Positions 5,677 through 26,832 of a DNA stretch of 64,000 nt are shown here, in pieces. Each line of letters starts with the position of its first letter. The first letter of the stretch is position 1. The translations under genes were made by a program, and so were the position numbers. The notes under the pieces are model-generated. The model searched no databases. It worked only from the letters and a program-made list of their open reading frames with translations, and was not told the DNA's origin. Location of the stretch: assembly GCA_018242665.1 (NCBI GenBank), contig JAFEBL010000002.1, positions 1 through 64,000 of the forward strand. The letters are read 5' to 3'. This stretch comes from Nitrospira sp. GTDB taxonomy: Bacteria; Nitrospirota; Nitrospiria; Nitrospirales; Nitrospiraceae.

Positions 5677-6504
5677 TTATCCTCTCAGCAGCGCTAATGC
5701 TTGCTGTGGCAGCGAATTGGCTTGCGCCAAGATCGCGATACCGGATTGGGTGAGGATCTGGTTCTTCGTGAACACAGATGTCTCTTGGGCAATGTCCGCA
5801 TCCCGGATTCGAGAATCCGCCGCTGTGAAGTTCTCAGCCGTGACCGTCAGATTCTGGATCGCGACTTCGAACCGGCTCTGGATCGAACCGTAATTCGCGC
5901 GGGCGGTTGCGACGGCGCTAATCGCGCTGTCGATTTTTGAAAGCATCGACTGTGCGGCCGCCGCCGTCGACACACTGGCGCCGGTCAAGCCGATCGCCGC
6001 TACGTCGAGGTCGTCCAAGGCCACATTCAACGAATTGCCTGATCCGCTCTTGAAGCCGATGAAGACTTCAAACGTGTTGCTGCTTCCACTGAGAAGCGGC
6101 TGACCGTTATATTCCGTCGTCGTCGCAATGCGATCGATTTCCGAACGCAACGCCGTGAATTCCTGGTCCAGATACGAACGCTCGGTCGTGCCCAGCGTTC
6201 CGCTGGCAGACTGGGTTGCCAACTCACGCATACGAGACAACAAGCTGCCGGTCGTCGCAGCCGCACCGTCTGCGACCTGGGTCAAGCTGATGCCGTCACC
6301 GGCGTTTCGATTGGCCTGATTGATGGAACGAATCTGGGCGCGCAATGTTTCGGACACGCCCAATCCGGCCGCGTCATCCGCCGCACGGGTGATTCGCAAG
6401 CCTGACGACAACCGCTCAACGGACTTCCCCAATTGAGCTTGGTTGATCGAAAGGTTCCGTTGAGCTGCCAGTGACGCGACGTTGGTATTGACTACTAATG
6501 CCAT
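5677..6504 (-). CDS. fliC: Flagellin
   Basis: The filament subunit. The 275-residue protein has a complete N-terminal D0/D1 domain (MALVVNTNVASLAAQRNL, ERLSSGLRITRAADDAAGL) and C-terminal D1/D0 (NYGSIQSRFEVAIQNL, ending QANSLPQQALALLRG). The variable D2/D3 domains are reduced to about 60 residues, giving a minimal flagellin. That surface stretch is Ser/Thr rich (SGSGNS, TGASVSTAAAAQS), which would suit O-glycosylation by the neighbouring sugar island (inference). Expression is predicted from a sigma-28 promoter at 6635-6661, with a ~120-base leader that carries a CsrA-like site and an AGGAGGA ribosome binding site. Confidence 0.97.
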   Translation of the reverse strand: MALVVNTNVASLAAQRNLSINQAQLGKSVERLSSGLRITRAADDAAGLGVSETLRAQIRSINQANRNAGDGISLTQVADGAAATTGSLLSRMRELATQSASGTLGTTERSYLDQEFTALRSEIDRIATTTEYNGQPLLSGSSNTFEVFIGFKSGSGNSLNVALDDLDVAAIGLTGASVSTAAAAQSMLSKIDSAISAVATARANYGSIQSRFEVAIQNLTVTAENFTAADSRIRDADIAQETSVFTKNQILTQSGIAILAQANSLPQQALALLRG

Positions 6505-6740: not shown

Positions 6741-7283
6741 CTAAGCGGCAAGGGGGCTCCCGGTCAGCCTAGGCAACAATTCATATTCCAGGACATCCGC
6801 GACCCGAATCGGATCTGATCCCGTTCGCGCACCCAGCAATTCCTCAATCCATGGCAAGAGTGGCCCGGACGACAGGCCGGAGACTCCCTGGGTCTGACCC
6901 GCCTCCAACATCTCGGTGTAGTCGGCCAGCCGTCCGAGCCAGGCGTCGATACATTTCACCGGCGCGGTGCCGGACCGCAACGGCGCGAGCAAACTCTGTC
7001 CATCGTTACGTAGTTGAGCGGCGAATCGATCGATCGCCTGTTTGGCATCGGCGATAATCGCATGCAGTGACTGGGAACAAGCCACGACGGCGCCCGCCCC
7101 GTTCGCCTGTTGGGTCAGCAGAGCTTGATCGAGATCACGGTCGCTGATCGTCTTTCCTCCCACTGTCAACGACGTCACCATGCGATGCTGTTCATGCGCC
7201 TTGTCGCTAATGAACGCCAGCACATTCATCAGTGAGCTGTCGTCTGGCACCTGCCATTGTTGGCCATCGAGTGTCACGTGCAT
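6741..7283 (-). CDS. Uncharacterised 180-aa protein beside flagellin
   Basis: I do not recognise this family. The protein begins with a short beta-rich segment (MHVTLDGQQWQVPDDSSLMNVLAFI) that resembles a ubiquitin/ThiS-like beta-grasp start. A long helical part follows (SLHAIIADAKQAIDRFAAQLRNDGQSLLAPL), then a segment with LGRLADYTEMLEA. It has no signal peptide or membrane segment. A strong ribosome binding site (AAAGGAG) supports the start. It is the last gene of the glycan island and is separated from fliC by the fliC promoter region, so it could act in glycan transfer, flagellin handling or export; none is shown. Confidence 0.75.
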   Translation of the reverse strand: MHVTLDGQQWQVPDDSSLMNVLAFISDKAHEQHRMVTSLTVGGKTISDRDLDQALLTQQANGAGAVVACSQSLHAIIADAKQAIDRFAAQLRNDGQSLLAPLRSGTAPVKCIDAWLGRLADYTEMLEAGQTQGVSGLSSGPLLPWIEELLGARTGSDPIRVADVLEYELLPRLTGSPLAA

Positions 7284-9006: not shown

Positions 9007-10820
9007 ATCAGGTCACGGGTTTCGCTACGATATTCATCCAGCATCAGGACCATGAGTTCCTCACGCGTGAGGGGCGCGGCCGTCCCTTTGCTCCTGATGT
9101 GCGCGGCCACGTCCTTCAGCTCGATCCGTTGCCCAGCGGGGCAGTCTTTGAGCAGCGCGTGCAGCGAGCGATCGTCGGCGCAACGGTTCAACAGAAATTC
9201 CTGTTGGCGCTCCCCTCGCAAGACTGCTCCGACCCGATCCGGCTGCGAGAGCCCGATCTGCCCCAGCAGATCCTGCATACGGTGCACATAGGTATGCGCC
9301 GCCAGCACCCGCTCTCGCGCGGCCAGCGTCATGGCTTGTCGGGCCGGCTGGTCTCCCAGCCAGTGCGTCACCAGTTTCGGCACCTCCTGAAACTCCCGGA
9401 ACGACACCATCTCCTGCTCCGTGAAAAACTCGCGCAAGCAAGATCGATCATCGACCAGTTGAAATGCCCCGCAGGCAGCCAGTTCAAAGGTACGAGGGTT
9501 CACGAAGTCACCCTGAGGATCCAGCCCTTCGCCACTTGTCGAGTGCAGATTGAGATTGATCGTCGTCGCGTTGAAGACCTTCATGCAAGTGTCAGTATCG
9601 ATCCTGGCTCCGTTCAACTGGATCACGGACCGCAGATCATCGGCTCCCTCCCATTCATTCCCCCACACCTTAAAGGACCAGGGGTGGCGCAGCAGCGCCG
9701 GGAAGAGTCGGCGTCGATTCGCATATCCGGCGCCCACGAAGGAAAGGTCTGCTCCAAACGTTCGGCGGTCCTCCTCCGAAAGCGTCATCGGCCGATGCAT
9801 GTCAGGGTCTGCGGCCATTGGGAGGTAGCTGACGTGCCTCGCACCGGCTTGTCGAAAGGCATTCAGGCAGGCTTCCTGCTGAATCACGAACCAGTATTCA
9901 TAGCCCGGTGCCATCTGTTGCCAATAGGTCAGATGGCGATAGTTCTCCACGAACCACATCGCGGTGAGAAATTTCTTCTTCCGCAGATGTTCCAACATCG
10001 GCAAGGTCAACGGAGCCTGGGCCAGCGAGAGGACGAGGTCCGGTGGTGATTCGGCTAACGAGGCAAGGCTCCATTGACTGAGAAGGTCCGCCATTCTGCC
10101 CTGCAGGATTTGGCGATTCCGCCCGTCCTTCAGCCTCCCCATCACTTCATAGCTGCCCGCATGAACACTGTGGTCGATCCACTGCACGGTATGACCCAAT
10201 GTTTCGAGTGCCCGTTTGACATAACGCGCGATGGGCAGAGACCCCCCGTAAATCGGGCCGACCAACGCGATCGTCAGTTGTCCGCCGGCCTGCCTGGCCA
10301 GGATACGGCGCAGCGCCTCCTCAAATGTTCGATGGAAATCCGCGTCTGGAGCGGCTGCAGGAGAATAGGACAGGCATCGAATGGGCCGGCCGCTCCTGCC
10401 CAATTGTGTAGCCATGTCGTCCGCCGTCCCGACGAGCCACTGAATCTGCGTACTCCAGGAGTCTAGTTTTCGTGCGGCCAGGGCATCGTGCAATTCATTG
10501 ATGTGGGGTACCAGCACGGCAAGCGCGATGTCCGGCGAGAGCGTCTTGCGCAGCGCCTCCACGTGATAGAGCAAGCCCACTCCCGCGACGACCACGGTCT
10601 CCCCAGCGCGGCAGGCAGCCGCATGCGTCTCTGCCCAGGTCTGTGCTTCACGTAGCGGGTCGTAGGCGCTGTGGATCCAGCGTCCGGCGCGTTTCGCGGA
10701 GGGCACGCCACTGCGAGCCGGTTCGATCGTCAACACCCCACCGGCAGCAGACTTGACTGTTGTTGTCAGGTCCTGATGGCCTGAGGCCAGGCGAGTGAGG
10801 TTGTCGTGAAGGATATTCAT
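9003..10820 (-). CDS. CgeB-like glycosyltransferase (GT-B fold)
   Basis: A 605-residue protein resembling the CgeB/DUF3880 group of GT-B glycosyltransferases. The N-domain has a Rossmann-like section ending LTIALVGPIYGGSLPIARYVKRALETLGHTVQWID, followed by the DUF3880-like part (PPDLVLSLAQAPL, TAMWFVENYRH). The C-domain has DLSFVGAGYANRRRLFPALL and the acceptor loop EGLDPQGDFVNPRTFELAACGAFQLVD, typical of this class. The start at 10820 (MNILHDNL) overlaps the stop of the upstream gene by ATGA, so the two are translationally coupled. Substrate unknown; within the flagellin-linked sugar island it probably extends the same glycan. Confidence 0.8.
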   Translation of the reverse strand: MNILHDNLTRLASGHQDLTTTVKSAAGGVLTIEPARSGVPSAKRAGRWIHSAYDPLREAQTWAETHAAACRAGETVVVAGVGLLYHVEALRKTLSPDIALAVLVPHINELHDALAARKLDSWSTQIQWLVGTADDMATQLGRSGRPIRCLSYSPAAAPDADFHRTFEEALRRILARQAGGQLTIALVGPIYGGSLPIARYVKRALETLGHTVQWIDHSVHAGSYEVMGRLKDGRNRQILQGRMADLLSQWSLASLAESPPDLVLSLAQAPLTLPMLEHLRKKKFLTAMWFVENYRHLTYWQQMAPGYEYWFVIQQEACLNAFRQAGARHVSYLPMAADPDMHRPMTLSEEDRRTFGADLSFVGAGYANRRRLFPALLRHPWSFKVWGNEWEGADDLRSVIQLNGARIDTDTCMKVFNATTINLNLHSTSGEGLDPQGDFVNPRTFELAACGAFQLVDDRSCLREFFTEQEMVSFREFQEVPKLVTHWLGDQPARQAMTLAARERVLAAHTYVHRMQDLLGQIGLSQPDRVGAVLRGERQQEFLLNRCADDRSLHALLKDCPAGQRIELKDVAAHIRSKGTAAPLTREELMVLMLDEYRSETRDLI

Positions 10821-12010
10821 GCCGCGATCGATTCGCAAAGGGCCGGTGCACACGCTCGCCAGATGTCGGCACGCGAGTGCTCGACTGTGTCATTCCCGCG
10901 ACCGTCGTCAAAATACGCTCCCCATCGATCCATCCGACTCCTCCACAGGGTCCAATCGGTCGCGTTGCGACCCTGGTCACCGCACATCAGCGCGATACTC
11001 TCCATGATCGGCCAGCGTTGAGGCGGCGCTTGCGTGGCATGCTGATAGACCCAATGTCCGTCGCCATAGGGACCAGTTTCATGCACCCGGGCACGTGAAA
11101 AATACCAACCCAGGGCTCGAGTGCCCACCAGCGTGCCAAGATGAAGCGGACCCGTATCAGCTCCGATGACCCAGTGGCAGTTGTGAAGCACACGCATCAA
11201 CTGGGAGATGTTCGTGCGACCGGTTGCATCCCATACGTGACCATGGAGTAACGGGGGAAGTGCATCGAAAATCGCCTGGGCAGTTTCACGTTCGGTGCCG
11301 CTCCCGATCAGCACGACCTGTCCATCTTGGGTCTGTGTCAAGAATTCGAGAATCCATCGGCTCCACACGGCCGGACTGACACAACGATCCGCCTCCCCTG
11401 CTCCGGTGGCCAATGCTACCCAGCGTCCCTGACGCTCACCGATCTCGGCGAGGTCTCCCGGCAGCTCGACAGCCGGGGGCACACACGACGGCGCGTGTCT
11501 GCGCGGCAGCACGCCGCACATGCCGCACCAGGCGTCAGCGAGATGCACTCGATTGGCACCCCGCTCCTTGGCGACGTGCCGGAGATGCTCGGCCCACGGC
11601 CGCATGCGTGTCTCGATGCGAGCTTGTTCCGGTTCCCGGGAGGCATGGCGTGAGAACAACTGCGTCATCAGATGGCTACGTTCATGCTGATTCAGCGGAT
11701 ACACCCGTTCGTACGTCGTGTCGCCAAGAGACATGAGATGGTGCTGCATGGCCTGCATGGTGGCGGTCGGATTCTCATGCCAACGAGTGGCCCAGCCCCG
11801 CCACTGTGCCCCGTCCCAGGGAATCACACGGCCGATATGACGCATGTGACTCAGGAGTCCCGTCAACGGTGCCGCACAGAGGATGTCCAGGGTTCGTTCC
11901 GGATAGGCTTCCCGCAACGCCTCGATGGCGGGAAGCGTTTGAACCAGATCACCCAGTCGAGCCAATTGAATCACCAGACTTCGCTGTTCCGGTGAGGGCT
12001 CATGCGGCAT
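10817..12010 (-). CDS. Glycosyltransferase family 9 protein
   Basis: A 397-residue GT9/heptosyltransferase-like protein. It opens with the family pattern SLVIQLARLGDLVQTLPAIEALREAYPERTLDILCA, and the nucleotide-sugar binding domain contains WVIGADTGPLHLGTLVGTRALGWYFSRARVHETGPYG. I place the start at 12010 (MPHEPSPEQ), overlapping the end of the upstream giant gene by 11 bases; a longer frame upstream lies inside that gene. It has an Arg/Trp-rich C-terminal tail. It is the second of two GT9 proteins in the operon, suggesting two heptose-like residues are added. Confidence 0.85.
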   Translation of the reverse strand: MPHEPSPEQRSLVIQLARLGDLVQTLPAIEALREAYPERTLDILCAAPLTGLLSHMRHIGRVIPWDGAQWRGWATRWHENPTATMQAMQHHLMSLGDTTYERVYPLNQHERSHLMTQLFSRHASREPEQARIETRMRPWAEHLRHVAKERGANRVHLADAWCGMCGVLPRRHAPSCVPPAVELPGDLAEIGERQGRWVALATGAGEADRCVSPAVWSRWILEFLTQTQDGQVVLIGSGTERETAQAIFDALPPLLHGHVWDATGRTNISQLMRVLHNCHWVIGADTGPLHLGTLVGTRALGWYFSRARVHETGPYGDGHWVYQHATQAPPQRWPIMESIALMCGDQGRNATDWTLWRSRMDRWGAYFDDGRGNDTVEHSRADIWRACAPALCESIAA

Positions 12011-15000
12011 GGTTCGGCACCAACGGGCGTTCGGCTTGGGCCAATTGTTTCGCCAACTCGGCCATGCCTTCGAAGTTCGGCGCCAGAGCCAACAGCCACT
12101 CATATTCCCGTTGCGCATCCGCCCGGCGTCCTGCTCTCAACAGTACTCCGGACAGAGCGAATCGCATAGCAATATTGCCCGGATTGCGGGCGACGAACGA
12201 CGAGAGCCGTGACGCGAGGGCGTCCCAGCGATGGAGCATCGTTCCGCATTTGAGCAGCCAGTGCATGCATTCTTCGTCATCCGGTTCCTGCGCGCAGAGT
12301 ACGGTAATTTCAGACCAGGCCGTCTCCAGCCGATTGCCGCCCAAGGCCGCCATGACCAGGCCTAGCATGGCCTTGCGCTGATTCGCGCCGGGCTGTTTCG
12401 CCCGTTCGAACGCCTGTTCCGCTTCTGCATAGGCAAGCCGTTGCATCGCGACGATCCCGCGCAACAGCCACCCTTCTCCGTGGGAGGGCTCGTGCTCGAG
12501 CAGTGCCGCCAGATGACGATCGGCGGCGTCGAATGCGCCGGTCTCCAACGCCTGCTTTGCTAACCCGATTCTGGCGTAGGGATCTTCCTCGATGGTCAGA
12601 ATGCGTTCCCAAAATGGAATAGCCAATGTTCGCTGGCCCACGCCAGCACAGAGCAAGCTAGCCCAACGAAGAATCCAGGGATCGGATGGCCACGCCTGAA
12701 CTCGCCGCAGGTAGCCTGCTACGGCATCGCTATCCTGGCGCAATGCCGCACGCTGGATATCCGCCAGCATCGTGCGTTGAGCAATGGTCTGGGGATCGGA
12801 CATGACTTCCAGCCTATAGCTCACCACGCCGTCCGTGATCTGCGTGTGGACCGCGTAGCCGTCTTCAAAGTGCAACAGATCTTCATCCGCCAGCCACCAG
12901 CAGGAGCCCCAGCGTTCCTGGAGCCGGCGACTGTTGTCCTGCTCGTAGGTCTTTCGTCCAGGAGTTTTGCTTTCGAGGTGATACAGCACGCTTTTCGGTT
13001 GATAGACGACCTTCCACTGCAGTTTTCTAATCTTTAGGCAGAGATCGACGTCCTCGAATCCGTTGCGATATCCTTCGTCGAATCCTTCAGCCTGCTCAAA
13101 CACCGTACGCCGGACCAGCATGCAGGCCGCGGTGACACATTGCAGTTCGCGCCGGCGTGACACGCAGGCCGCCTGGGCGTTGCCGCCTCGGTAAAGATGG
13201 TACGGCAGGAACCATTCTCTCGAAAATGCGACGCCGGCATGTTGAATGGTGCCGTCCTCGAAGAGAAGTTTGCTGCCGACAACGGCGACGTCTGCATGCG
13301 CGCGAATCTCTTCGACTAGGGCCGAGAGCCACCCCTTCAGTGGAACCGTGTCGTTATTGAGGAACACGAGATATTCGCCACGAGCAGCGCGTGCGCCCTG
13401 ATTGCAGGCCTTGGAGAATCCAAGGTTCTGCTCGTTTCGAATGACTTGGACATCGCCGCCCAGGTTTTGAAGGAATGTCTCCACTCCATCCGTCGAGCCG
13501 TTGTCGACCACCACGACTTCATAGCTCACGCCGTCCGTCACGTCGGCTAGCGCCTGCAAACATTGTCGCGTCAACGAGGCGTTGTTCCACACTGGGATGA
13601 TGATCGAGCAGTCATAGGTACGCGCGGCAGGTGCTTGGGTGGTGGTCGAAACCTTGAGTGTCAAGAGATTTTTCTTTTGGGCTTCCAGGACGCCCGGCAG
13701 ACGCTCGGCATAGGGACTGTATTTTCGATAAATAAGATCCATCGTCCGTCGAAAGGTGTCGCTCATACTGCTGCTCGTCGACGATCCATCGATACGCCAA
13801 GTAAACTCGGCCGTGGCCTTCTTAATATGATGAAAGGGATAGTGAAGCGCCATGCGAATCCAGAGATCCCAGTCTTCGTGAACAAAGAGGGATTCATCGA
13901 AATACCCCGCTTGGTCGAGGCAACTGCGCTCATGCATGACTGTCAGCACAGGAAGATAATTGCCAATCAACAGTTCTCGTGGATCAAAATCATGTGAATG
14001 CGGGAGGTCTCGTCCGGTGACCACGTAGTGCTCACCCTGCCGTTTTTCGTGGATTCTCCACGCGTCCGTATAGGCGATTTTGTGCTCACCGCGCTGCAAG
14101 ACTGCGAGCAAGGTCTCAAGATGATCCGGATAATACCGATCATCATCGTCGAGGTAGGCGATGTATGTACCTTTTGCGGCACGCAGCGCCGTATTGCGTG
14201 CCGCGGCCCGATCTCGATTGTCTGTATGTTGAATGGCCACGAGCTGTGCACCGGCATTGAAGCTATCGATGACGGAGGTGACATCCTGCCCGCCATCATT
14301 GACGACGACGATCTCGAAGTCCTGGCACGTCTGTGCGAACACACTCTGTATGGCGTCCCGCAGACGATCAGGGCGGTTATAGGTCGGAATGATCACGCTG
14401 ACGAGGGGGCGAACATCGAAGGGAATCGACGACACAGCTTGTCCCTGTTCATCCGGCGCTTGCCACGCCCAGACTTGATAAAAGGGAATGAGTGTTCGCT
14501 GGTGACACTCGGCAGAGGTGGGGGCAGGAAGAAATCTAAAGCTTGGCAACTCAATGCTGACGCGATCGTTGCCGAGACGAACGAACTGATTGTCGATGAA
14601 GAGACGCGTGAGGTCAGCTTCCGTCAACCAATCTTCAACCGGCTGATTCGGCGGCGCAAGTTTCTTCCACAGATCGAACACCTCCGCTCGCGGCGTTGTC
14701 ACAATGACATGCCCGCGAGGCTTCACCAAGCGGCGAATCATGGCGACGAATTGAGCCTGATCTGGTTGAGGCACATGCTCGATGACTTCCGAGCTGAGCA
14801 CGACATCAAAAGGAAGAAAATCGGCTTGTTGCAACAGCGTCTCCGCATGTCCGGCATGCAAGCGCACATGCGGATAGAGTGTTCGACCATGTGCCACCAC
14901 AGCGGCAACCGGCTCGATGCCTGTGCAATCACCATACGCTGATGCCAGATTCGCCAGCCACCCTCGACCGCAGCCAAGATCCAAGATTCGGAGGCGGGAG

Positions 15001-17390
15001 GTCTCACCTTTTCGAGCACGCAGTCGTACAATGTGTTCTAAGTACGCAGCAATCTTGACCCACCGAGCTGTCTCATCATTGTTCGGCTCAGGCGTCGACC
15101 ATTCGGGATTCTTGATGAACAATTCGGCATAATACGCGTCCTCACGAGCCTGCTCATCCATGTCGGTCTTTTCACTATGCATCAGCACTCCTTCGTGTTC
15201 TTTTCGTAGGGAACTCGAGACAGTCGTCTGTATCCTGGCGAGTTGCTGAAAGAGTTGCAGCGTGTTGTTCGCAGGATGGAGTGCACAGACTCGTGCCAGC
15301 TTCTCAGCGTGCTCCAAACTCAGTTGAGACAAACGTGTTCTCGCAGAACGCTGTACGTCCTCACTGAACACATCAGGATGATGCATGACCAAGTGAGCTC
15401 TCACGAGCTCCTGGTTGGCGTGCACTTGTGCGACCATGGTGCCGGGACGGTTGCGATACAGAAACAATGGTTTCGCCAGATGGTGAGAGCGGAAGCCCAT
15501 CTTGGCTGCGGCGAGCCAGAAGCTCCAATCCTCTGCACCAAGATACATAGCCGGGGAATATCCGCCGACCGCCTCCCATACCGCGCGCCGGTAGACAGAA
15601 CAATAATCATGCACATTGGCCTGAATCAGTCGCGCTAAGGTGGAGATATCCTTGCGATGAACATGGGATGACTCGCCGAAGTTCTGTTCGTCCACATAGA
15701 CCACCGCAATATCCGCATGCTGCTCAAGAATGGACACGGTCTCGTTCAGATAGTCGGGATGCAAGCAATCGTCGGCATCGAGCGGAAGCAGATAGACCCC
15801 TTGTGCGGCTCGGATTCCGGCATTCCTTGCATCCGCCAATCCTCCGTTCGTTTTACGAATGAGCCGAATGCGATGAGTGGGATAGGTGGCGATCAATTGA
15901 TCTGCGACCGCCGCCGTATCGTCAGGACTTCCATCGTCCACGATGATGCACTCCCAATCGCGATACGACTGAACGATGACACTGGTCACGGCCTCCGCCA
16001 AAAACTGCGCTTGCTGATAACAAGGAATGATAATCGACACCTTTGGAACAATTCGGGACCTCTCTCTGCCGGTCTCAGAATCCTGCCCCTCTGATCCGGG
16101 TTGTGTGGCCAACAGAAGAGATGCGTTCGGGCATCGCGCCTCGGTCGACAGAGTCGTCTTCACAGTCGGCTCGTTCGAAGAGGCTGCATCGAAGGCCGTG
16201 TTGAGTAGCAAGGTCGCGAACGTTGGTTCTATGTGGCTGGTCGTTTGCTCGCCATCAGAAAATGACGGGATCACGCCCGTGGCGATCCATGAGAGAATCT
16301 GCTGGATGCGCTTTTCGGCTGTATGATGGCGGAACATTTTTCGATTCGCGTTCCGGGCCAATTCATAGGCGTAGCCTTTGTCCCGGAGTACCGATGCGAC
16401 GTGCTGAGCCAACGTTCTCGGATCATCTTTAGGGAAGAATAAAATGTCTTTCCCCTCTTCGAATAACGCTCGATTACGAGGACGATTGGTGATATCCCAG
16501 GAAATAACCGGTCTTCCCGCCGCCATCGCCTCATACACGCGGCCGCCATATCCCTTTTGAAACCCTGGTAAATTGACGATGCACGCCCATTCCCTCAGGC
16601 TCTTCATCCATTGGGTAAATTCAGCCAATCGCACACGTTGCAGATCGGAGACATATTTCGGTAGCAGGGTCTCTATGGCATCAGGATGGCGCGCTAATAG
16701 CTCAGCCGCCCTCAACTGCAACTGATCAAAGAGCCGCTGAACCGCCGACGGCGAAGAGGTCGGTGAAACCAACACCCCTTTCAGACCTGGATGGTCGAGC
16801 CATGCTTGGCGATGGCCGTAGGGTGTACCGTGAAACGCCGCCACGTGATGCACTGGATGCTCGTCCGGAGGATCGATAAATCGTTCCGGTACAAATAAGG
16901 GACACCAGAATGCGGGTGTTGTCCCTTTCGCATTGATTGCTGTTGCATCGACCTCGTCAACCACCACCGCGTGAGTCATATACGCGAGTTGAGATTCGGT
17001 CACCATCGCCCGAGTGGCCGTGATCGGTGAAAAGCGCTGCTCTTCTTGAGTATACGAGAGCGATTCCATCACGAACCCCACACGAACCGGAGCCAGTGAC
17101 GCAATCCATTCAAGAAGCTGACGATCATATTCGTAATGGACTAACCACACCCAGACAAGGTCGAACTGCTTTCCCCGGCACAATCGCTCGGCGTGCTTCA
17201 GCCAGTTCGCGTCCCCTGGTGAAGACGACGGAAAGATAGCGGGAATCGTCAGACACTCGTACCCATTCGCTTGGAGTCCTTCCTGGATCGCAAAATTTGC
17301 CGAATACGTCCACGGCCGTGCCATGTTCCATGTCGCAAACTCCAGTTGAATGAGTAACGCCTGTGGTTTACCTTGTGTGCTCATGGACAT
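12000..17390 (-). CDS. Giant multi-domain glycosyltransferase/methyltransferase with TPR tail (1796 aa)
   Basis: One open frame carries six modules. Residues ~1-380: GT-B glycosyltransferase (GYGGRVYEAMAAGRPVISWD). ~448-690: GT2 domain (KVSIIIPCYQQAQFLAEAV, PLDADDCLHPDYL). ~750-960: class I SAM methyltransferase (LRILDLGCGRGWLANLAS near 797). ~993-1230: second GT2 (VSVIIPTYNRPDRLRDAIQS, YLDDDDRYYPDHL). ~1259-1510: third GT2 (CSIIIPVWNNASLTRQCL, FLNNDTVPLKGWL). ~1540-1790: TPR repeats. Each GT2 keeps its DxD-like acidic motif, so all may be active. Such fusions build and methylate a whole glycan on one scaffold; TPR tails often bind the acceptor, as in flagellin glycosyltransferases (family knowledge). 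AGGAG supports the start. Internal regions appear more AT-rich than the flagellar genes. Confidence 0.9.
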   Translation of the reverse strand: MSMSTQGKPQALLIQLEFATWNMARPWTYSANFAIQEGLQANGYECLTIPAIFPSSSPGDANWLKHAERLCRGKQFDLVWVWLVHYEYDRQLLEWIASLAPVRVGFVMESLSYTQEEQRFSPITATRAMVTESQLAYMTHAVVVDEVDATAINAKGTTPAFWCPLFVPERFIDPPDEHPVHHVAAFHGTPYGHRQAWLDHPGLKGVLVSPTSSPSAVQRLFDQLQLRAAELLARHPDAIETLLPKYVSDLQRVRLAEFTQWMKSLREWACIVNLPGFQKGYGGRVYEAMAAGRPVISWDITNRPRNRALFEEGKDILFFPKDDPRTLAQHVASVLRDKGYAYELARNANRKMFRHHTAEKRIQQILSWIATGVIPSFSDGEQTTSHIEPTFATLLLNTAFDAASSNEPTVKTTLSTEARCPNASLLLATQPGSEGQDSETGRERSRIVPKVSIIIPCYQQAQFLAEAVTSVIVQSYRDWECIIVDDGSPDDTAAVADQLIATYPTHRIRLIRKTNGGLADARNAGIRAAQGVYLLPLDADDCLHPDYLNETVSILEQHADIAVVYVDEQNFGESSHVHRKDISTLARLIQANVHDYCSVYRRAVWEAVGGYSPAMYLGAEDWSFWLAAAKMGFRSHHLAKPLFLYRNRPGTMVAQVHANQELVRAHLVMHHPDVFSEDVQRSARTRLSQLSLEHAEKLARVCALHPANNTLQLFQQLARIQTTVSSSLRKEHEGVLMHSEKTDMDEQAREDAYYAELFIKNPEWSTPEPNNDETARWVKIAAYLEHIVRLRARKGETSRLRILDLGCGRGWLANLASAYGDCTGIEPVAAVVAHGRTLYPHVRLHAGHAETLLQQADFLPFDVVLSSEVIEHVPQPDQAQFVAMIRRLVKPRGHVIVTTPRAEVFDLWKKLAPPNQPVEDWLTEADLTRLFIDNQFVRLGNDRVSIELPSFRFLPAPTSAECHQRTLIPFYQVWAWQAPDEQGQAVSSIPFDVRPLVSVIIPTYNRPDRLRDAIQSVFAQTCQDFEIVVVNDGGQDVTSVIDSFNAGAQLVAIQHTDNRDRAAARNTALRAAKGTYIAYLDDDDRYYPDHLETLLAVLQRGEHKIAYTDAWRIHEKRQGEHYVVTGRDLPHSHDFDPRELLIGNYLPVLTVMHERSCLDQAGYFDESLFVHEDWDLWIRMALHYPFHHIKKATAEFTWRIDGSSTSSSMSDTFRRTMDLIYRKYSPYAERLPGVLEAQKKNLLTLKVSTTTQAPAARTYDCSIIIPVWNNASLTRQCLQALADVTDGVSYEVVVVDNGSTDGVETFLQNLGGDVQVIRNEQNLGFSKACNQGARAARGEYLVFLNNDTVPLKGWLSALVEEIRAHADVAVVGSKLLFEDGTIQHAGVAFSREWFLPYHLYRGGNAQAACVSRRRELQCVTAACMLVRRTVFEQAEGFDEGYRNGFEDVDLCLKIRKLQWKVVYQPKSVLYHLESKTPGRKTYEQDNSRRLQERWGSCWWLADEDLLHFEDGYAVHTQITDGVVSYRLEVMSDPQTIAQRTMLADIQRAALRQDSDAVAGYLRRVQAWPSDPWILRWASLLCAGVGQRTLAIPFWERILTIEEDPYARIGLAKQALETGAFDAADRHLAALLEHEPSHGEGWLLRGIVAMQRLAYAEAEQAFERAKQPGANQRKAMLGLVMAALGGNRLETAWSEITVLCAQEPDDEECMHWLLKCGTMLHRWDALASRLSSFVARNPGNIAMRFALSGVLLRAGRRADAQREYEWLLALAPNFEGMAELAKQLAQAERPLVPNHAA

Positions 17391-17441
17391 GGTGACTCCT
17401 CTTCGCCTGCTCGGTCTCTTCTCACCCTATGGTCCTAGTCT

Positions 17442-19067
17442 CTAGCCATTGGGGTTCGCGGGATGGCCGAAATGTCCTGCCGGCGCGGCGCCCGCTCTCG
17501 AAGCGGAAGCGATGGTCAACAACGGAGCCGCGTTGCTCGAGCCGGCTGGAGCAACTCCAACTGGCTGGGGGCTCATGGCTGACTCCTGTATCTGGCCGAA
17601 GGCCCCGTCTCCTAAGCTGATCAATTGCTCTTGCGATGCCCGTCCAGCACCCCCGAAGAGCTTTTGAGAAAGCAGGCGTGCAAGACGCACCAACATGAGC
17701 GATCCTCCGATGACTCCGTGTTTTTGGAGCATGGGAATCCAGCGCCAGGGGGCGGAGTAGATGCTCACAAACCCTTCGTTCTGCAGTTCGATGAGGTCAC
17801 GAGGCGTCAGTTCTCCCACCGTGGTGACCGCGGAGCCATACCGCCGATATTCGGAAAAATCCTGAGTCATCAGCCGGACGCCTTTTTCGCCGTTGACCGC
17901 CAACTTGTGAAACTCGGTTCCGGGATACGGCACCGCGATGGCAAAATTCGCCTGTTTGACTTCCCTCGCATGCCGCAGGAATTTCAGCGTCGCCCGGACG
18001 GTCTCTCGGGTTTCTCCCGGCAATCCGATCATCACGGAGTTCATGGCCTCGACGCCATACCTGTTGCAGATCTCGTTCGCTTTCACGTAGTGCTCCAGCG
18101 GCACCTGTTTCTTCATCGTCTTTCGCATTTCGGGATCGACGGTTTCGAGTCCGAACGACAGACGAATCAGGCCGCTTTTCGCTAACCGAGCGATCACCTC
18201 TTCCTCGACGAGATTGGCCCTGGTGCTGCCTTCAAAGGTAATCTGCAATTTCTCCTGATCAATCAGGTCGCAAATCTCGAGAATGTGGTCTTTCCAGAGG
18301 GTCATCACATCGTCGACGATGTAGAAATGCCGGGTGCCGAACATCTCGACGACCTGCTTCATTTCATTCACGACCGAACGCGGCGAGCGCACACGCATCT
18401 CAGTCGTTTTCAGCGCGTCCGAGGCGCAGAAGATACATTTCCAGGGACAGCCCCGCATGGTTTGAATCGAGGTGAATGGGAGACGGCCGCGTAGCGTGCC
18501 CAGTTTATAGTGAGACATCGTCAATCGATGCCGCGCGGGAACCGGCAACGCGTCAAGATTGGTAATGTCGGCCGGCTGCCCTGTCGACACGAGTTCCCCG
18601 TTACGCCGAAAGAGGATCCCCGCAACCGTCGACGGGTCCTTGCCCTGTTCATAGGCGTCCAGGAATTGCGGCCATGATTCCTCTGCCTCCCCGATGAAGG
18701 CATAGTCGAAGCAAGCCAACAGCGCTGTTTCCTTCATGATGGTGATGTGAGGGCCACCCACGGCGATGGGAATGTCCGGAGCCAGACGTTTGATGCCTTC
18801 CGCGACGGTTTTACTCAAATGGAAAAACGGGCTCGTCGCGGTAAAGCCGATGAGATCCGGCTTCATGGCAACCGCCCGCTGCACCATCTCGTCCAATGGA
18901 ATCTGTTCGGATTCCCCGTCGAGAATAGTGACGTTGTGACCGTGACGTTCGGCAATTGCGGCCAGCAGCGCAAGGTTCAGCGGTGGCCAGGTCGAATTCC
19001 GGCGGGCGAAATGGCCGAACAGGCCATAGGCTCCGGTCCAGGTGGGATACAGTAAGAGCACGTTCAT
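17442..19067 (-). CDS. B12-binding radical SAM enzyme (first of two)
   Basis: A 541-residue protein with an N-terminal cobalamin-binding Rossmann domain (MNVLLLYPTWTGAYG; GGPHITIMKETALL) and a radical SAM TIM barrel whose cluster motif is CPWKCIFC near residue 212. C-terminal barrel motifs SFGLETVDPEMRKTMKK and SVMIGLPGETRETVRATLKF are also present. This class methylates unactivated carbons or rearranges carbon skeletons in sugars, lipids and natural products. The last ~60 residues are a Pro/Ala/Gly-rich tail. It lies 8 bases behind the second radical SAM gene and just before the giant glycosyltransferase, so a C-methylated or rearranged sugar is a reasonable guess. Confidence 0.88.
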   Translation of the reverse strand: MNVLLLYPTWTGAYGLFGHFARRNSTWPPLNLALLAAIAERHGHNVTILDGESEQIPLDEMVQRAVAMKPDLIGFTATSPFFHLSKTVAEGIKRLAPDIPIAVGGPHITIMKETALLACFDYAFIGEAEESWPQFLDAYEQGKDPSTVAGILFRRNGELVSTGQPADITNLDALPVPARHRLTMSHYKLGTLRGRLPFTSIQTMRGCPWKCIFCASDALKTTEMRVRSPRSVVNEMKQVVEMFGTRHFYIVDDVMTLWKDHILEICDLIDQEKLQITFEGSTRANLVEEEVIARLAKSGLIRLSFGLETVDPEMRKTMKKQVPLEHYVKANEICNRYGVEAMNSVMIGLPGETRETVRATLKFLRHAREVKQANFAIAVPYPGTEFHKLAVNGEKGVRLMTQDFSEYRRYGSAVTTVGELTPRDLIELQNEGFVSIYSAPWRWIPMLQKHGVIGGSLMLVRLARLLSQKLFGGAGRASQEQLISLGDGAFGQIQESAMSPQPVGVAPAGSSNAAPLLTIASASRAGAAPAGHFGHPANPNG

Positions 19068-19075
19068 ACATCACC

Positions 19076-20617
19076 TCATGAGAGGGTACGAGCTGCCTGC
19101 ATGGCGACAGCTGGAGGCTGGCGGACTAACTTCCGCGATGTCATTGCTTGGACGTGGCGCACCGTCTCTTCATCGAACCGTTTTCCCAACATGGCCCGAT
19201 AGGCCGGCCGATCGAAATAGGCCTGAAACGCGCTATCACGGAAGGCGAGCACCTCAGTGGCATGCAGGTGACGCGTGGGCAGCGGAAGAGAATCCACGGC
19301 ATGCTGGGAATAGGCGGTCCACGAATCGGGAAGAGGCCACCCTTCTTCGACGGCTCGCCGATAGAGCGCCGATCCGGGGTACGCCATGGTGCAGTAGAAG
19401 TTGGCGAACTCACAGTTCAGATCGATGGCCAAATCGAGTGTTGCCTGCATCGTGTCATGATCGTCTTCCGGCAACCCGAAAATGTAGTTGGCGATCACGT
19501 TGATGCCGGCTGCTCGAACCCGCTCGATGGTCCGCCCGATCTGATCCTGCTCGAATGTCTTGAGCACATCGTTGCGGACTTTGGCACTGCCTGATTCGAT
19601 TCCGAAGCAGAGCCACCGCACCCCCGCGCGGACAAGCAGCTCTTCCATGCCGTCTTTCACGGAGTCCACCCGTGCATAGGCCCAGATGTTCAGATCGTAC
19701 TGGCGCTCGATCAACAGCTGGCACAATTCCGTGACATGCCGCCGATTGAGCACAAACATTTCATCGGCAAACTTGATGTGGCGTACTCCATATTGCAGCA
19801 CGAGGCGATCGATGTCCGCTGCAATGGTCTTCGGCGACCAGAAGCGGTAGCTATTGACCTCAGCCCGATACCCTAACGCCGCTTCCCCGCTCTTAAACGG
19901 TGCTTGAATGCAACAATACGAGCAGTGATAGGGACAGCCCAATGTGGTGTAGAGCGACGCGTAGGGACTGCGCCGGTCAAGAAAGCCGAAACAATGCCAG
20001 TTGTGCGCGCGATATCGATCCATGGGAAGAAGATCCCAGGCCAGCCCCGGCATGTCCTCATCCAGCCGTTCGATGTTCGGTGCGGAACTGGATTGTTGGA
20101 TCGATCCGTCGCTCCAATAGTACAGGCCTCTCACGCGGCCCCAATCGGGCGAGGTTTCCTGTAAGGCCGCGACCAAGTCCGTGATGGTGTAGAGCCCTTC
20201 CCCGGCACAGACGAAATCCGCGGCCTCTTCGCGCAGCGTGCGTTCCGGCAGCGCCGCGACATGGCCGCCCAACAGCAGCACTTTGCTCGACAGGCCCTGC
20301 TCCTTGATGGATCGACAGATGGCTCCGGCCGACGGCATCACCTGCGTGGACGCGGAAGGATTGTGCCCGTAGACCAGTACGACGACGAGACGAGGAGCCT
20401 GCTCCTTCACCCGCGCCGCCACCTCCTCCGGAAGCAGGTCCTCGGCATTGGCATCCAGAATGTCCACGCTGATCCCTCGGCGGCGCAGAAACGTCGCGAT
20501 CAGTCCGCCCCACACAGGAGGTTCGATGGCGCTCAGGGTGCTCCCCAAGGCCTGGTAGATCTGGGTCCGGCTTCCGGGATTGACCAGAAGCACATCGAGT
20601 CTGGCCTGTGGCATCAT
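19076..20617 (-). CDS. B12-binding radical SAM enzyme (second of two)
   Basis: A 513-residue protein of the same architecture as its neighbour but clearly different in sequence. Its N-terminal B12-binding domain includes LDVLLVNPGSRTQIYQALGS, KVLLLGGHVAALPERTL and CAGEGLYTITDLVAAL. Its radical SAM barrel has the cluster motif CPYHCSYC near residue 228, then CFGIESGSAKVRNDVLKTF and ANYIFGLPEDDHDTM. AAGGAG precedes the ATG. The gene lies 9 bases from the transketolase half upstream and 8 bases from the next radical SAM gene, within one operon. Substrate unknown; the divergence of the pair suggests two successive or alternative modifications rather than a recent duplication. Confidence 0.88.
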   Translation of the reverse strand: MMPQARLDVLLVNPGSRTQIYQALGSTLSAIEPPVWGGLIATFLRRRGISVDILDANAEDLLPEEVAARVKEQAPRLVVVLVYGHNPSASTQVMPSAGAICRSIKEQGLSSKVLLLGGHVAALPERTLREEAADFVCAGEGLYTITDLVAALQETSPDWGRVRGLYYWSDGSIQQSSSAPNIERLDEDMPGLAWDLLPMDRYRAHNWHCFGFLDRRSPYASLYTTLGCPYHCSYCCIQAPFKSGEAALGYRAEVNSYRFWSPKTIAADIDRLVLQYGVRHIKFADEMFVLNRRHVTELCQLLIERQYDLNIWAYARVDSVKDGMEELLVRAGVRWLCFGIESGSAKVRNDVLKTFEQDQIGRTIERVRAAGINVIANYIFGLPEDDHDTMQATLDLAIDLNCEFANFYCTMAYPGSALYRRAVEEGWPLPDSWTAYSQHAVDSLPLPTRHLHATEVLAFRDSAFQAYFDRPAYRAMLGKRFDEETVRHVQAMTSRKLVRQPPAVAMQAARTLS

Positions 20618-20626
20618 GGCGGCTCC

Positions 20627-21643
20627 TTAGTACGCCGTTCCTTGCGGGGCGCGATGTGTCGTTGGCTGCGCGATCGGGGCAGCCTTGCCCGACCCCCCGC
20701 GCATCCATCCGGTAATACGCGACACCACCGCACCGACATCCAAACCATATTTTTCCCAAATCGTCTTGCGTCCACCGTAATCGAAGACAAACCGATCGTC
20801 CTGCCCGATCCTCATTGTCGGAATACGAAGATCTTCATCAATCATCCATTCGGCGACCAGGCTGCCCAGGCCGCCTGCCAGCAGGTGCTCTTCCAGCGTG
20901 ACCACACGCGCGACACCGCGCAGATGCGCCTTGAGCGCCTCGCCGTTGAGCGGTTTCAGCCGGAACACGTCGATCACGCCCACGTTCAACCCCGCGCTCT
21001 GATGCAGAAGATCCGCCGCGGTCAACGCCTCGTGGACCATCACTCCGGACGTGATGATGCACAGGTCGTTGCCTGATCGCAGTTGCGTCAGTCCTTTCGC
21101 GATATCGATGGTTCGCTCCGCATACACTTCCGGCAGGCCGGCGCGATCGAATCGGATATAGTGCGGCGATTGGTCGTGATGCACGAGCGCCGCCAATTGG
21201 CCCGCGCTCGTTCCATCCGCCATACTGTAGATCTTGAGGTTCGGCAGGGCGCGCATGATGGACACGTCTTCCACGGTGTGATGGCTCGGCCCCATGATGT
21301 CGTAGGCATAGCCGGCCCCCACGCCGATCAACACGATGGGGAGATTCATCGCGCAGACGTCCAACTTCACCTGTTCGTAGCAACGCAGGCTCACGAATGG
21401 GGCGATGGCATAGACGTAGACTTTCTTCCCCTCGAAGGCCATGCCGCAGGCCATGCCGATCAATTGCTGCTCCGCAATCCCGACGTTGAAGAACCGGTCG
21501 GGAAAATCGCGGGCGAATTGATCGAGCGTTGGGGCGCCGTTGTCTGCCGTGATAAAGACCGCCTGGGGGTCTTCCTGGAATAACTTGTACAATTCGTTGA
21601 AGAACTGATCTCTCATCCCGAGAATGAACTTGGTCGATCCCAT
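20627..21643 (-). CDS. Transketolase, C-terminal half (pyrimidine-binding and C domains)
   Basis: A 338-residue protein equal to the second half of a transketolase: the pyrimidine-binding domain (FFNVGIAEQQLIGMACGMAFEGKKVYVYAIAPFVSLRCYEQVK, with the catalytic-type Glu of GIAEQ) and the C-terminal domain (GLNVGVIDVFRLKPLNGEALKAHL). With the gene upstream it forms a split, two-subunit transketolase that binds thiamine diphosphate at the interface. Split transketolases occur in sugar-biosynthesis clusters, where they make or consume seven-carbon sugars or append two-carbon branches. The start MGSTKF has AGGAC upstream. Confidence 0.9.
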   Translation of the reverse strand: MGSTKFILGMRDQFFNELYKLFQEDPQAVFITADNGAPTLDQFARDFPDRFFNVGIAEQQLIGMACGMAFEGKKVYVYAIAPFVSLRCYEQVKLDVCAMNLPIVLIGVGAGYAYDIMGPSHHTVEDVSIMRALPNLKIYSMADGTSAGQLAALVHHDQSPHYIRFDRAGLPEVYAERTIDIAKGLTQLRSGNDLCIITSGVMVHEALTAADLLHQSAGLNVGVIDVFRLKPLNGEALKAHLRGVARVVTLEEHLLAGGLGSLVAEWMIDEDLRIPTMRIGQDDRFVFDYGGRKTIWEKYGLDVGAVVSRITGWMRGGSGKAAPIAQPTTHRAPQGTAY

Positions 21644-21713
21644 GAAGCTGTCCTTTCAGCAATCGACGGGGCCAGATGGCCTGGGCGTCGCTCGCACTCG
21701 AATGATCACAAGG

Positions 21714-22601
21714 TTACACGTGATTGATGTCGTGCCTGGTCAATTCGAGATCCGCGCCTTCCGGCACGCGGTAATGCCATAAGCGCTTGCCCTCCATGAG
21801 CGAGGCGCCGTGCCCCTTGCGGGTATTGGCGATGATCATCAGCGGCTTCTTGCGTTTCGTCGATCGCATATCTCCGAATGCCTCAAAGATGGCTGGGAAG
21901 GAGTGGCCGTCGATCTCGCGCGTCTCAAATCCAAACGCCTTGAACTTCTTATCGAGCGGATTGAGGCGCGGATTGTCGGAAGCCAGCCGTTGATCTGCCG
22001 GATCCGTCGGCCCGAGTACGCCCTGTCCATTACGATCGACGATGCAGATCAGATTGCGATAGCCGCGATGGCCGGCATAAATGGCGGCTTCCCAGTTGGA
22101 CCCTTCGAAGAGTTCCGCATCCCCGAGGAAACACACGATCAGGTGTTCGTCCCGATTCATCAACGCGGCTTCGGCCATGCCGGTAGCGATCGGAAGACCG
22201 TGGCCTAGCGAGCCGGTGATGACTTCGATTCCCGGAATGTTCCATTCGGCATGGACGCCCAGCAGATTCCCCACGCCGGCGAAGTTTTCCAATTCGGAAA
22301 GAGGAAAGTATCCCTGGTCCGCCAGGATCGGATACAGTCCGATTCCTCCCTGCCCCTTGCTGAGAATAAACCGGTCCCGCCCGTTCCATTTCGGGTTCCG
22401 CGCGTCGAAGCGCAACAGGCCTCCGTAGTACAAGGCCACCAGCAGTTCGGTTTGTGAAAAGGCCGTGCTGACATGGCCGCTATGTGCCTTCACTGCCATC
22501 TCCAGGACCGTCGAGCGCACCCATTGCGCCTTGCGCCGCAACCGTTCTTCCATGTCCAATGCGTTGTTGTGCGAATTGCCGGTGACGTGTGCCGTCTTCA
22601 T
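21714..22601 (-). CDS. Transketolase, N-terminal half (thiamine-diphosphate pyrophosphate domain)
   Basis: A 295-residue protein equal to the first half of transketolase: KAHSGHVSTAFSQTELLVALYYGGLL at the N-terminus. The thiamine-diphosphate/Mg signature is the Gly-Asp-Ala-Glu region (CFLGDAELFEGSNWEAAIYAGHRGYRNLICIVDRNGQG). A strong Shine-Dalgarno (TAAGGAGG) precedes the ATG. It is 70 bases from the gene for the other half. Its position behind a heptose-type nucleotidyltransferase and kinase suggests that it supplies sedoheptulose-7-phosphate or a related ketose to the island (inference). Confidence 0.9.
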   Translation of the reverse strand: MKTAHVTGNSHNNALDMEERLRRKAQWVRSTVLEMAVKAHSGHVSTAFSQTELLVALYYGGLLRFDARNPKWNGRDRFILSKGQGGIGLYPILADQGYFPLSELENFAGVGNLLGVHAEWNIPGIEVITGSLGHGLPIATGMAEAALMNRDEHLIVCFLGDAELFEGSNWEAAIYAGHRGYRNLICIVDRNGQGVLGPTDPADQRLASDNPRLNPLDKKFKAFGFETREIDGHSFPAIFEAFGDMRSTKRKKPLMIIANTRKGHGASLMEGKRLWHYRVPEGADLELTRHDINHV

Positions 22602-22623
22602 GCTTTTCCTCCTTAGATGAATG

Positions 22624-23346
22624 CTATCGTCGACATGCGCCCATGCTGTCCGTAAAAGCCGCCAGCCGTTCCGGGGTCCCGATATCGAATAGAGGGCTGG
22701 CGGTCACAAATCCATACAGTGACTCCGGGACCAACCGTGGAATGAATTCTCGCTCCAGCGACCAGGCTGTGGCCGCTGGAAACAGCGTACTCACCGTTCG
22801 CTCAAACACATAGATGCCCGCATTGAAGTAGCCCCGCGGACCACAGCCGGGCTTTTCCACCATCGACAGCACGCGGTCGTCTTGCCCCAAGACCACGTCT
22901 CCCGCGTCGGTCCGATTGTCGGGACTAGCGAGGACCATCGTTCCTTGCGCGCGTTTCATCAGATGAAATCGCAACAGTCGCACAGGGTCCACTTCGCAGA
23001 ATGAATCGCCGTTGACTACGAACACCCTCTGGCTGCGCGCTACCGCGAAGGCCTGTGCCATGGCTCCCCCGGTGCCAAGAAGAGAAGGATCCCGCACAAA
23101 CAGCGCCTGATAGGCCTCACCTTCCGATCGTACCCAGGTTTCTATGAGGTCGCCCATGTGTCCCGTGCAGAAAATGAAACGACGGGCGCCGTATCTGAGC
23201 CAGTGGTCGATCAGAAACGACAGAAACGGTCGGCCGTGAATGTCGGCCATGGGTTTCGGACGATCGGACACCACGGTCTTCAGCCTGGTGCCGAGGCCGC
23301 CGCACAGAATGATCACATCGCAGTCTGCCATCGAGCTCTGAGTCAT
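22624..23346 (-). CDS. Sugar-1-phosphate nucleotidyltransferase (HddC-like)
   Basis: A 240-residue GT-A-fold nucleotidyltransferase. The signature CDVIILCGGLGTRLKTVVSDRPKPMADIHGRPFLSFLID is the family's GGxGTRL...PKP motif, and FVVNGDSFCEVD supplies the metal-binding Asp. Together with the preceding GHMP kinase it matches the HddA-HddC pair, which phosphorylates D-glycero-D-manno-heptose 7-phosphate at C1 and then couples it to GMP. The start overlaps the kinase stop codon (4 bases). The exact nucleotide and sugar cannot be read from sequence; another hexose or heptose 1-phosphate is possible. Confidence 0.8.
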   Translation of the reverse strand: MTQSSMADCDVIILCGGLGTRLKTVVSDRPKPMADIHGRPFLSFLIDHWLRYGARRFIFCTGHMGDLIETWVRSEGEAYQALFVRDPSLLGTGGAMAQAFAVARSQRVFVVNGDSFCEVDPVRLLRFHLMKRAQGTMVLASPDNRTDAGDVVLGQDDRVLSMVEKPGCGPRGYFNAGIYVFERTVSTLFPAATAWSLEREFIPRLVPESLYGFVTASPLFDIGTPERLAAFTDSMGACRR

Positions 23347-24413
23347 GCGGCCTTTCCGAGGAGCGTCGCTTTGAGCTGAGCGGCAGTCTGCGCAGAACTC
23401 TGCGCCCAGACATCGTCCAACATCAGTGGATCTTCCTGATAGAACACGATTTGCGTGCCGTGCCCTTCGAACTTGAACGGCACCTGCAAGAGACCGGGGA
23501 GAGCCAGTCGGATACGTTCATGATCCTCAGGCTTGGCGAACAACAGCATGAACCCGCCCCCGCCTGCCCCGAGCAACTTGCCTCCGATTGCCCCAGCCTC
23601 TCGGGCTGCCGCATAGATCGCATCGATCGCCGGCGTGGTGATGCGCGAGGTCAACCGCCGTTTGAGCATCCAAGCCTCGTGCAGCATGGTCCCAAAGTCC
23701 GCAAGGTCACGATTCCCGGTCAGAATTGAGACGCCTTCATCAACCATCTGCAGCATGGTCGACAATTCGGCCTGTCGCTGTTTGGTGCGATCGATCTGTT
23801 CGCGGGCCACTTCTGAGGCGATTCGCGAGAACCCTGTGAAATACAGTTGCAGGTGGTTCTGGAAAGAGGCCAGGCGATCCGGGCGCATAATGATCGGGGT
23901 GTAGCCGATGTCTCCGTTGGGGAAAAAGGTCGCTTTGCAGAGCCCTCCGTGAGCCGCCAGGACTTGATCTTGGCAACCGACGGCTTCCCCGAGCACATCC
24001 TGCTCGACATGAATCGCGGCCTCGGCCAACTGGGCTTTGCTGGGCATGATGTGTTGCAAGGCATACAGGGTATGGAGCAGGCCGACGGTGAAGGAGGAGC
24101 TGGAGCCCAACCCGGTTCGCGCCGGTAAGTCCCCGTCGTGATGAATTTCCAGACCCTCATCGATATTGAGATACTTCAACACGCCGCGCACCGCGGGATG
24201 TTCGATCTCGTGGTTGTTGTTCACCAGTTCGATCCGGGAGTAGGCAATTCTGGTGCGATGTGCGAAGAATGGCGGCAGCTGGCGACAACTGATGTAGCAA
24301 TACTTATCGATGGTCGTGGCCAGTACCGCCCCGCCATGTTCGCGGAACCAGACGGGATAGTCGGTCCCGCCGCCGAAGAAGGAGATGCGAAACGGCGTTC
24401 GGCTGATGATCAT
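23343..24413 (-). CDS. GHMP-family sugar kinase (HddA-like, heptose-7-phosphate kinase type)
   Basis: A 356-residue GHMP kinase with the start MIISRTPFRISFFGGGTDYPVWF, highly typical of D-glycero-alpha-D-manno-heptose-7-phosphate kinases. The ATP-binding motif is LPARTGLGSSSSFTVGLLHTL (PxxxGLGSSS) near residue 97, and the C-terminal motif is GGKLLGAGGGGFMLLFA. It would make the heptose 1,7-bisphosphate precursor of GDP-heptose. Its neighbour HddC-like enzyme completes activation. GmhA- and GmhB-like steps are not in the window and would have to be encoded elsewhere. Confidence 0.85.
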   Translation of the reverse strand: MIISRTPFRISFFGGGTDYPVWFREHGGAVLATTIDKYCYISCRQLPPFFAHRTRIAYSRIELVNNNHEIEHPAVRGVLKYLNIDEGLEIHHDGDLPARTGLGSSSSFTVGLLHTLYALQHIMPSKAQLAEAAIHVEQDVLGEAVGCQDQVLAAHGGLCKATFFPNGDIGYTPIIMRPDRLASFQNHLQLYFTGFSRIASEVAREQIDRTKQRQAELSTMLQMVDEGVSILTGNRDLADFGTMLHEAWMLKRRLTSRITTPAIDAIYAAAREAGAIGGKLLGAGGGGFMLLFAKPEDHERIRLALPGLLQVPFKFEGHGTQIVFYQEDPLMLDDVWAQSSAQTAAQLKATLLGKAA

Positions 24414-24443
24414 CGTCGCCTCCCCTCTCCATGTGTGCCCGCG

Positions 24444-25391: not shown

Positions 25392-25443
25392 GGTTACACG
25401 CGCTCCTTCTGGCAGTGCCACTCGTGCTGGCCCATTCCTCTGT

Positions 25444-26637: not shown

Positions 26638-26832
26638 GGTGATCGTCCCTTCTGTGTCAATCGGGGCACGGCCTCGTCGCAGGACGAGAGGTGACATCCA
26701 GGGACTAATCAAGATGCATGCCACTTCGGATCTGTGGCGGCGTGAGGGAAAACGACATGAATTGAGGGTCTGGGGAAAGAGAATGCTGGAATGGCAGGCA
26801 AAAAATTCCCAGTCGGCGGCAACCGCTGCAGT
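26638..26832. other. Intergenic region before the glycan operon
   Basis: 195 bases between the YcgR-like gene and the first glycan gene, both leftward. On the minus strand TGGCATG-CATC-TTGAT (26708-26723) resembles a sigma-54 promoter but lacks the invariant -12 GC, so I do not call a promoter. I see no T-run terminator and no clear sigma-28 element. How the operon starts is not evident. Confidence 0.4.

Follow-up and report, generated by a model that had tools for sequence, protein, structure and literature searches.

We propose that a giant modular glycosyltransferase of Nitrospira, a genus of nitrite-oxidising bacteria, is part of an assembly line that glycosylates flagellin in the cytoplasm, with its TPR region docking flagellin and its front modules being exchanged. 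We consider this proposal quite likely to be correct. The gene lies in a 64,000-nucleotide stretch of contig JAFEBL010000002.1 (assembly GCA_018242665.1, positions 1 to 64,000), which we call the window (Table 1).

The giant is encoded by a single intact reading frame without internal stops, and its ATG start is preceded by GAGGAG. The domain order is GT-B, GT2, methyltransferase, GT2, GT2, and TPR, with every module above the Pfam gathering scores. A sequence-only reading of this DNA had reported six modules with intact motifs in one open frame, which is borne out by the reading frame, the Pfam matches, and the positions of the motifs. GT2 (PF00535) matches three stretches, each with an acidic donor motif and an ED motif, and all of these are intact: PLDADD (residues 536-541) and GAEDWSFW (618-625) in GT2a; LDDDDRY (1080-1086) and VHEDWDLW (1170-1177) in GT2b; and LNNDT (1344-1348) and GFEDVDLC (1444-1451) in GT2c. 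The same reading had described all three acidic motifs as DxD-like, but in GT2c the motif is NND, which is not a strict DxD. The methyltransferase (PF13489/PF08241, residues ~789-936) has an intact ILDLGCGRGW (802-811), and DLGCGRG (804-810) within it is motif I (E/DxGxGxG) of class I SAM methyltransferases.

The GT-B module has a GT4-type fold: its AlphaFold model has a pLDDT of mostly 75-94, and its Foldseek matches are GT4 enzymes such as PglA and PimA. PF13524 matches its C-terminal half (residues 282-366). However, only the second glutamate of the EX7E motif of GT4 enzymes is kept (K279/E287). The fold of GT2b is close to 6p61 (WrtF) in a structure comparison. The AlphaFold models of the GT2 modules are poor (pLDDT <60 over much of them, from shallow alignments of 13-16 sequences). 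The TPR solenoid extends over residues ~1533-1790 in the model (pLDDT ~90; Z 18.4 against the TPR of OGT), so it is longer than the Pfam match (TPR_19 or PF14559, ~1595-1643).

The giant is neither a chance frame nor an assembly artefact. It has orthologues that are 82-86% identical, including one on the closed chromosome of Ca. Nitrospira defluvii, which is the nearest named genome (82%). In the comparison with the orthologue from L004, dN is 0.078 and dS is 0.45, so the giant is under purifying selection.

Table 1. Features of the giant glycosyltransferase and its surroundings (positions in the window)
Feature	Position	Strand	Evidence
Giant modular glycosyltransferase, GTB-GT2a-MT-GT2b-GT2c-TPR, 1796 aa	12000..17390	-	ORF, Pfam, module HMMs
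GT-B module, aa 1-385, GT4-like fold, PF13524 C-terminal half	16236..17390	-	Pfam, module HMMs, AlphaFold, Foldseek
GT2a module, aa 446-740	15171..16055	-	Pfam, module HMMs
Methyltransferase (MT) module, aa 746-982	14445..15155	-	Pfam, module HMMs
GT2b module, aa 995-1246	13653..14408	-	Pfam, module HMMs, fold comparison
GT2b/GT2c linker, aa 1240-1258	13617..13673	-	max-chi-square breakpoint of similarity
GT2c module, aa 1256-1545, constant	12756..13625	-	module HMMs
TPR module, aa 1551-1796, alpha-solenoid, most constant part of the giant	12003..12740	-	module HMMs, model
GT9 (heptosyltransferase-like) gene; probably starts at 12007 and overlaps the stop of the giant	10817..12007	-	annotation, synteny
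CgeB-like GT (DUF3880 + PF13524), 616 aa	9003..10853	-	annotation, synteny
Second GT9 (heptosyltransferase-like), 558 aa	7330..9006	-	annotation, synteny
Conserved 180-aa protein (u180), no known family, between GTs and flagellin	6741..7283	-	synteny
Flagellin, 275 aa, proposed acceptor	5677..6504	-	annotation
B12/radical SAM enzyme, part of the block replaced between G023 and G019	17442..19067	-	annotation, alignment
Sugar cassette (genes listed in the text)	19076..26724	-	annotation

On the 3' side of the giant, its strand also carries a GT9 gene, the CgeB-like gene, the second GT9 gene, and u180, which are separated by short gaps or overlap slightly. Beyond u180 are flagellin, a FlaG-like frame, and then fliD. 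As far as the compared stretches reach, the order giant-GT9-CgeB-GT9-u180-flagellin-fliD is kept on one strand with few gaps, both among further Nitrospira and among further genera of the family, and partly at the level of the order. The syntenic loci thus contain three more glycosyltransferase genes (two GT9 and one CgeB-like), so we view the giant as part of a set, and the earlier suggestion that a single polypeptide could build, cap, and transfer the glycan lacks support in that form. u180 has no match in Pfam or NCBIfam; it may be a chaperone for flagellin or, like GlfM of Maf-2, a factor in glycosylation.

Upstream of the giant are two B12/radical SAM enzymes in total, the second of which belongs to the sugar cassette. 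The cassette also includes a split transketolase (C, N), an HddC-like nucleotidyltransferase, an HddA-like GHMP kinase, an epimerase/dehydratase, and a DegT aminotransferase. The gaps within it are -41 to 70 bp, which suggests that it is one operon. The cassette varies among relatives. In L003 (L003:3555-8272), an aminotransferase-like frame and an acetolactate-synthase-like TPP enzyme occupy the site of the window's split transketolase (N and C parts, 20627-22601), and a B12/radical SAM enzyme accompanies either version. Two rSAM541-like matches (86% and 73%) lie upstream of the giant in L175, which is of class D (see below).

The presence of the giant tracks the type of flagellin. Within the family (f1), 77 of 85 flagellated genomes have a giant (GT2c-TPR) and 8 have Maf (PF01973); none has both and none has neither (P = 2e-11, Fisher's test on the 85 genomes, which is a guide only, as genomes were counted and not independent events). 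Two of the 77 (G354 and G369) have the giant only as fragments at contig edges. Flagellin was not detected in two further genomes with the giant: the G003 contig stops short of flagellin, and the G156 match is itself truncated. PF01973 is absent from 29 genomes of the genus, and neither PF01973 nor PF20157 is among the giant's Pfam matches. Flagellin alongside the giant is 274-275 amino acids long in 58 of 61 complete frames, versus 618-643 amino acids in the 8 genomes that lack the giant, where the Maf genes adjoin flagellin. Two Maf proteins were annotated, a Maf-TPR and an MT-Maf-TPR, both with a C-terminal TPR; they lie beside the long flagellin in sister Nitrospiraceae (L220:5453-8095 and L224:3444-7001). 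As the giant and Maf-TPR are found at the same place, two unrelated types of transferase, each with a C-terminal TPR, occur at flagellin. Between the TPR regions of the giant and Maf, we found no clear homology beyond the repeat itself (best E = 0.002 with filters off, and short local matches). L220 also contains a PseB-like Polysacc_synt_2 gene and a separate Epimerase_2 gene. FliD-like frames in L220-L227 are much larger (~770-780 amino acids in most) where flagellin is long, and the cap and the type of filament seem to switch together.

The island might instead act on lipopolysaccharide or another envelope glycan and merely be parked among flagellar genes. The GT9 neighbours do match models of LPS heptosyltransferases, though below the cut-off, and the sugar cassette resembles genes for O-antigen sugars. 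But the giant lies beside flagellin and carries a TPR, its presence follows the type of flagellin and excludes Maf, and it is absent from large and near-complete genomes of non-flagellated relatives such as G029, G101, G208, and G230. Also, we saw no Wzx, Wzy, or ligase among the genes of the locus that we examined. We therefore consider a role in LPS to be improbable. The giant combines a TPR and glycosyltransferases in one protein and its gene is associated with flagellin, as expected for a TPR-type flagellin O-glycosyltransferase. That the system is linked to flagellin, with the C-terminal TPR docking it, had been suggested from the sequence alone, and this is supported by the synteny, by the absence of Maf wherever the giant occurs in flagellated members of the family, by how constant the TPR is, and by the precedents of FlmG and Maf-1. 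TPRs in general bind many partners, which counts against docking. A search of the open-licence literature found no paper on flagellin glycosylation in Nitrospira.

To compare architectures, HMMs of the window's modules were run on 69 related proteins, with one genome sampled per species. GT2c-TPR is at the C-terminus in 66 of the 69. (G050, G060, and G271 retain the TPR part but are missing GT2c.) The front varies: it contains GT2, a GT4-like block, Methyltransf_24, an FkbM methyltransferase, or nothing, and there are at least 12 architectures. One front is MT-GT2b alone (1040 amino acids), and another is GTB-MT-GT2b. Class C lacks an insert. In class A, which includes the window, GT2a is inserted between GTB and MT (4 genomes); in class D, a GT4-like block is in this position (16); and class B has an N-terminal Methyltransf_24 (12). 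Further fronts have an FkbM methyltransferase or other GT2 modules, and L181 has GT4, GT2, and GT4 domains ahead of the TPR. GT2a is confined to the 4 genomes of class A and to L169 and L170 from another genus (62-63% identity). MT is directly before GT2b in all 45 cases that have MT and is never found without GT2b, while in four cases GT2b has no MT in its frame. In the fragmented MAG L120, a 1390-amino-acid frame (L120:1038-5207) has a B12/radical SAM-like start and ends in GT2c-TPR, so it is possibly a radical SAM-GT fusion. We did not find a complete homologue with the TPR outside of Nitrospirota in a pattern-based scan, which was not exhaustive.

The giant is replaced by different alleles between species. 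G023 and G019 are 97.1% identical in rpoB but have different alleles of the giant. Their flanks are ~90% identical on both sides, while a block that starts ahead of the radical SAM gene and ends midway through GT9_433 either cannot be aligned or is just 62-74% identical. On the rpoB tree, classes A-D change 8 times over 20 genomes, and a single clade for class A is rejected (P = 9e-48). In contrast, class A forms one clade on the trees of GTB and MT (support 100/99-100). On the trees of the giant's modules, the number of class changes is 4 for GTB, 4 for MT, and 5 each for GT2b, GT2c, and TPR. For the neighbours it is 9 for rSAM513, GT9_433, CgeB, and flagellin, 8 for GT9_558 and u180, and 6 for fliD. 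(NTPt and GHMP have 5 each, on just 11 and 10 rows respectively.) In all of the comparisons that we made, similarity to different relatives switches within the GT2b/GT2c linker (residues 1240-1258; max-chi-square). Class D also groups together on the trees of GT2c and TPR, which means that exchange involved the back end as well, at least in part. The G+C content is 0.555-0.577 across the giant (12001-18000) versus ~0.59-0.61 over much of the remaining window, which is consistent with exchange.

The best reading of these sequence comparisons, we suggest, is that front modules were exchanged horizontally between species. The case for recombination rests on the comparison with rpoB and on the identity of the flanks. 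We set aside the topologies of single-module trees as proof, as the splits A+D/B+C and D/rest are compatible. This compatibility implies that the pattern on the four-class trees is partly due to branch length, which would fit with front modules that diverged in place through rapid evolution or gene conversion. Divergence in place would not account for whole modules being present or absent, for GTB and MT uniting a class that rpoB rejects, for the sharp boundaries between the sister species G023 and G019, or for the breakpoint in the linker, and we consider it very improbable. We also considered, and dropped, the idea that the window's GT2c derives from the L020 line: tree tests on GT2c alone did not group it with L020/L122 to the exclusion of L003/L004 (AU test, P = 0.30).

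In our proposal, the system would work as follows. The constant C-terminal TPR would dock flagellin in the cytoplasm before export, by analogy with FlmG and Maf-1. GT2c and the three conserved separate glycosyltransferases (two GT9 and one CgeB-like) would build the protein-proximal part of an O-linked glycan. MT and GT2b, together with the front modules that vary (GT-B and GT2a in the window), would add and methylate outer, species-specific sugars, which would be made by the upstream cassette. Because MT travels with GT2b in 45 of 45 cases, MT probably methylates the sugar that is added by GT2b or a neighbouring sugar. An earlier proposal that an intermediate is methylated was deduced from the order of the domains, but order along the chain is not order in time, and all that our comparisons establish is the pairing of MT with GT2b. 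Exchange of the giant likely alters the surface of the flagellum, as the length of flagellin hardly varies, and gene exchange is likely the route by which species change this surface.

Another view is that the modules are independent enzymes, fused only for co-expression and stoichiometry, without any assembly-line channelling. Modules can be absent, replaced, or on separate frames: L180 has a GT2b-GT2c-TPR frame of 847 amino acids, with GTB and MT matches in separate frames upstream. On the other hand, 66 of the 69 proteins keep the fusion to one shared TPR back end, which suggests that tethering to the acceptor matters. We give the independent-enzyme view appreciable weight but doubt it. Within the assembly line, the order of modules from the TPR outwards might even mirror the order of sugars from flagellin outwards, as a glycan-synthase code. 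We think that this is unlikely. If it were true, then the flagellar oligosaccharide of a species could be read from its front modules and altered by exchanging them, much as with modular polyketide and peptide synthases.

Surface glycans usually vary by the swapping of entire gene clusters. In Nitrospira, a single gene holds most of the variation: one end is fixed and would dock the acceptor, the front is exchangeable, and the neighbouring flagellin is short and near-constant. This suggests that each Nitrospira species builds its own sugar coat on a nearly constant flagellar protein, which may bear on how phages and predators recognise nitrifiers. The architectures provide a natural set in which to ask what specifies glycans that have no template, and the family offers a natural switch between two flagellin-glycosylation systems (the giant with a short flagellin, or Maf with a long one).

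Several known systems share some of these features. Like the giant, multi-module GT polymerases such as K4 chondroitin synthase (2z86) and other GT2 chains (L021 and L022) have two or more GT2 domains per chain; among the loci that we examined from other phyla, none had a TPR of the giant's type. Pseudomonas has VioT/OrfN and Fgt1, with VioM; VioT is a large glycosyltransferase for the flagellin glycan (1173 amino acids), and in P. syringae a separate VioM methylates the terminal sugar (PMC3927599). VioT/VioM and the giant both combine a large glycosyltransferase with a methyltransferase, but VioM is a separate gene, and the accessible part of that source does not mention a TPR. Clostridium sporogenes has predicted flagellin glycosyltransferases with GT2 and TPR beside its flagellin genes (PMC13317340), as in our locus; the accessible part of that source describes only GT2 plus TPR and reports neither a line of several modules nor their exchange. 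The C-terminal TPR of Maf-1 gives specificity for flagellin as the acceptor (Unay et al. 2024, as cited in PMC13317340). The giant's TPR is also C-terminal, and Maf lies beside flagellin at the same position in sister Nitrospiraceae. Maf-1 differs in having an unrelated catalytic domain (PF01973) and in transferring NulO; and within the family, Maf and the giant exclude each other. Finally, FlmG from Caulobacter crescentus is a flagellin O-glycosyltransferase of 596 amino acids with TPR and GT-B that transfers pseudaminic acid, and its TPR is known experimentally to bind flagellin (PMC7591256). Unlike in that pseudaminic acid system, we saw no NulO genes in the giant's locus. The giant does not belong to the FlmG family proper, in which the TPR is N-terminal and a lone GT-B makes up the C-terminal part: the giant's order is reversed, with four glycosyltransferases and a methyltransferase ahead of a C-terminal TPR. 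Nevertheless, both have TPR and glycosyltransferase in one soluble protein, both are linked to flagellin, and both are found in a genome without Maf.
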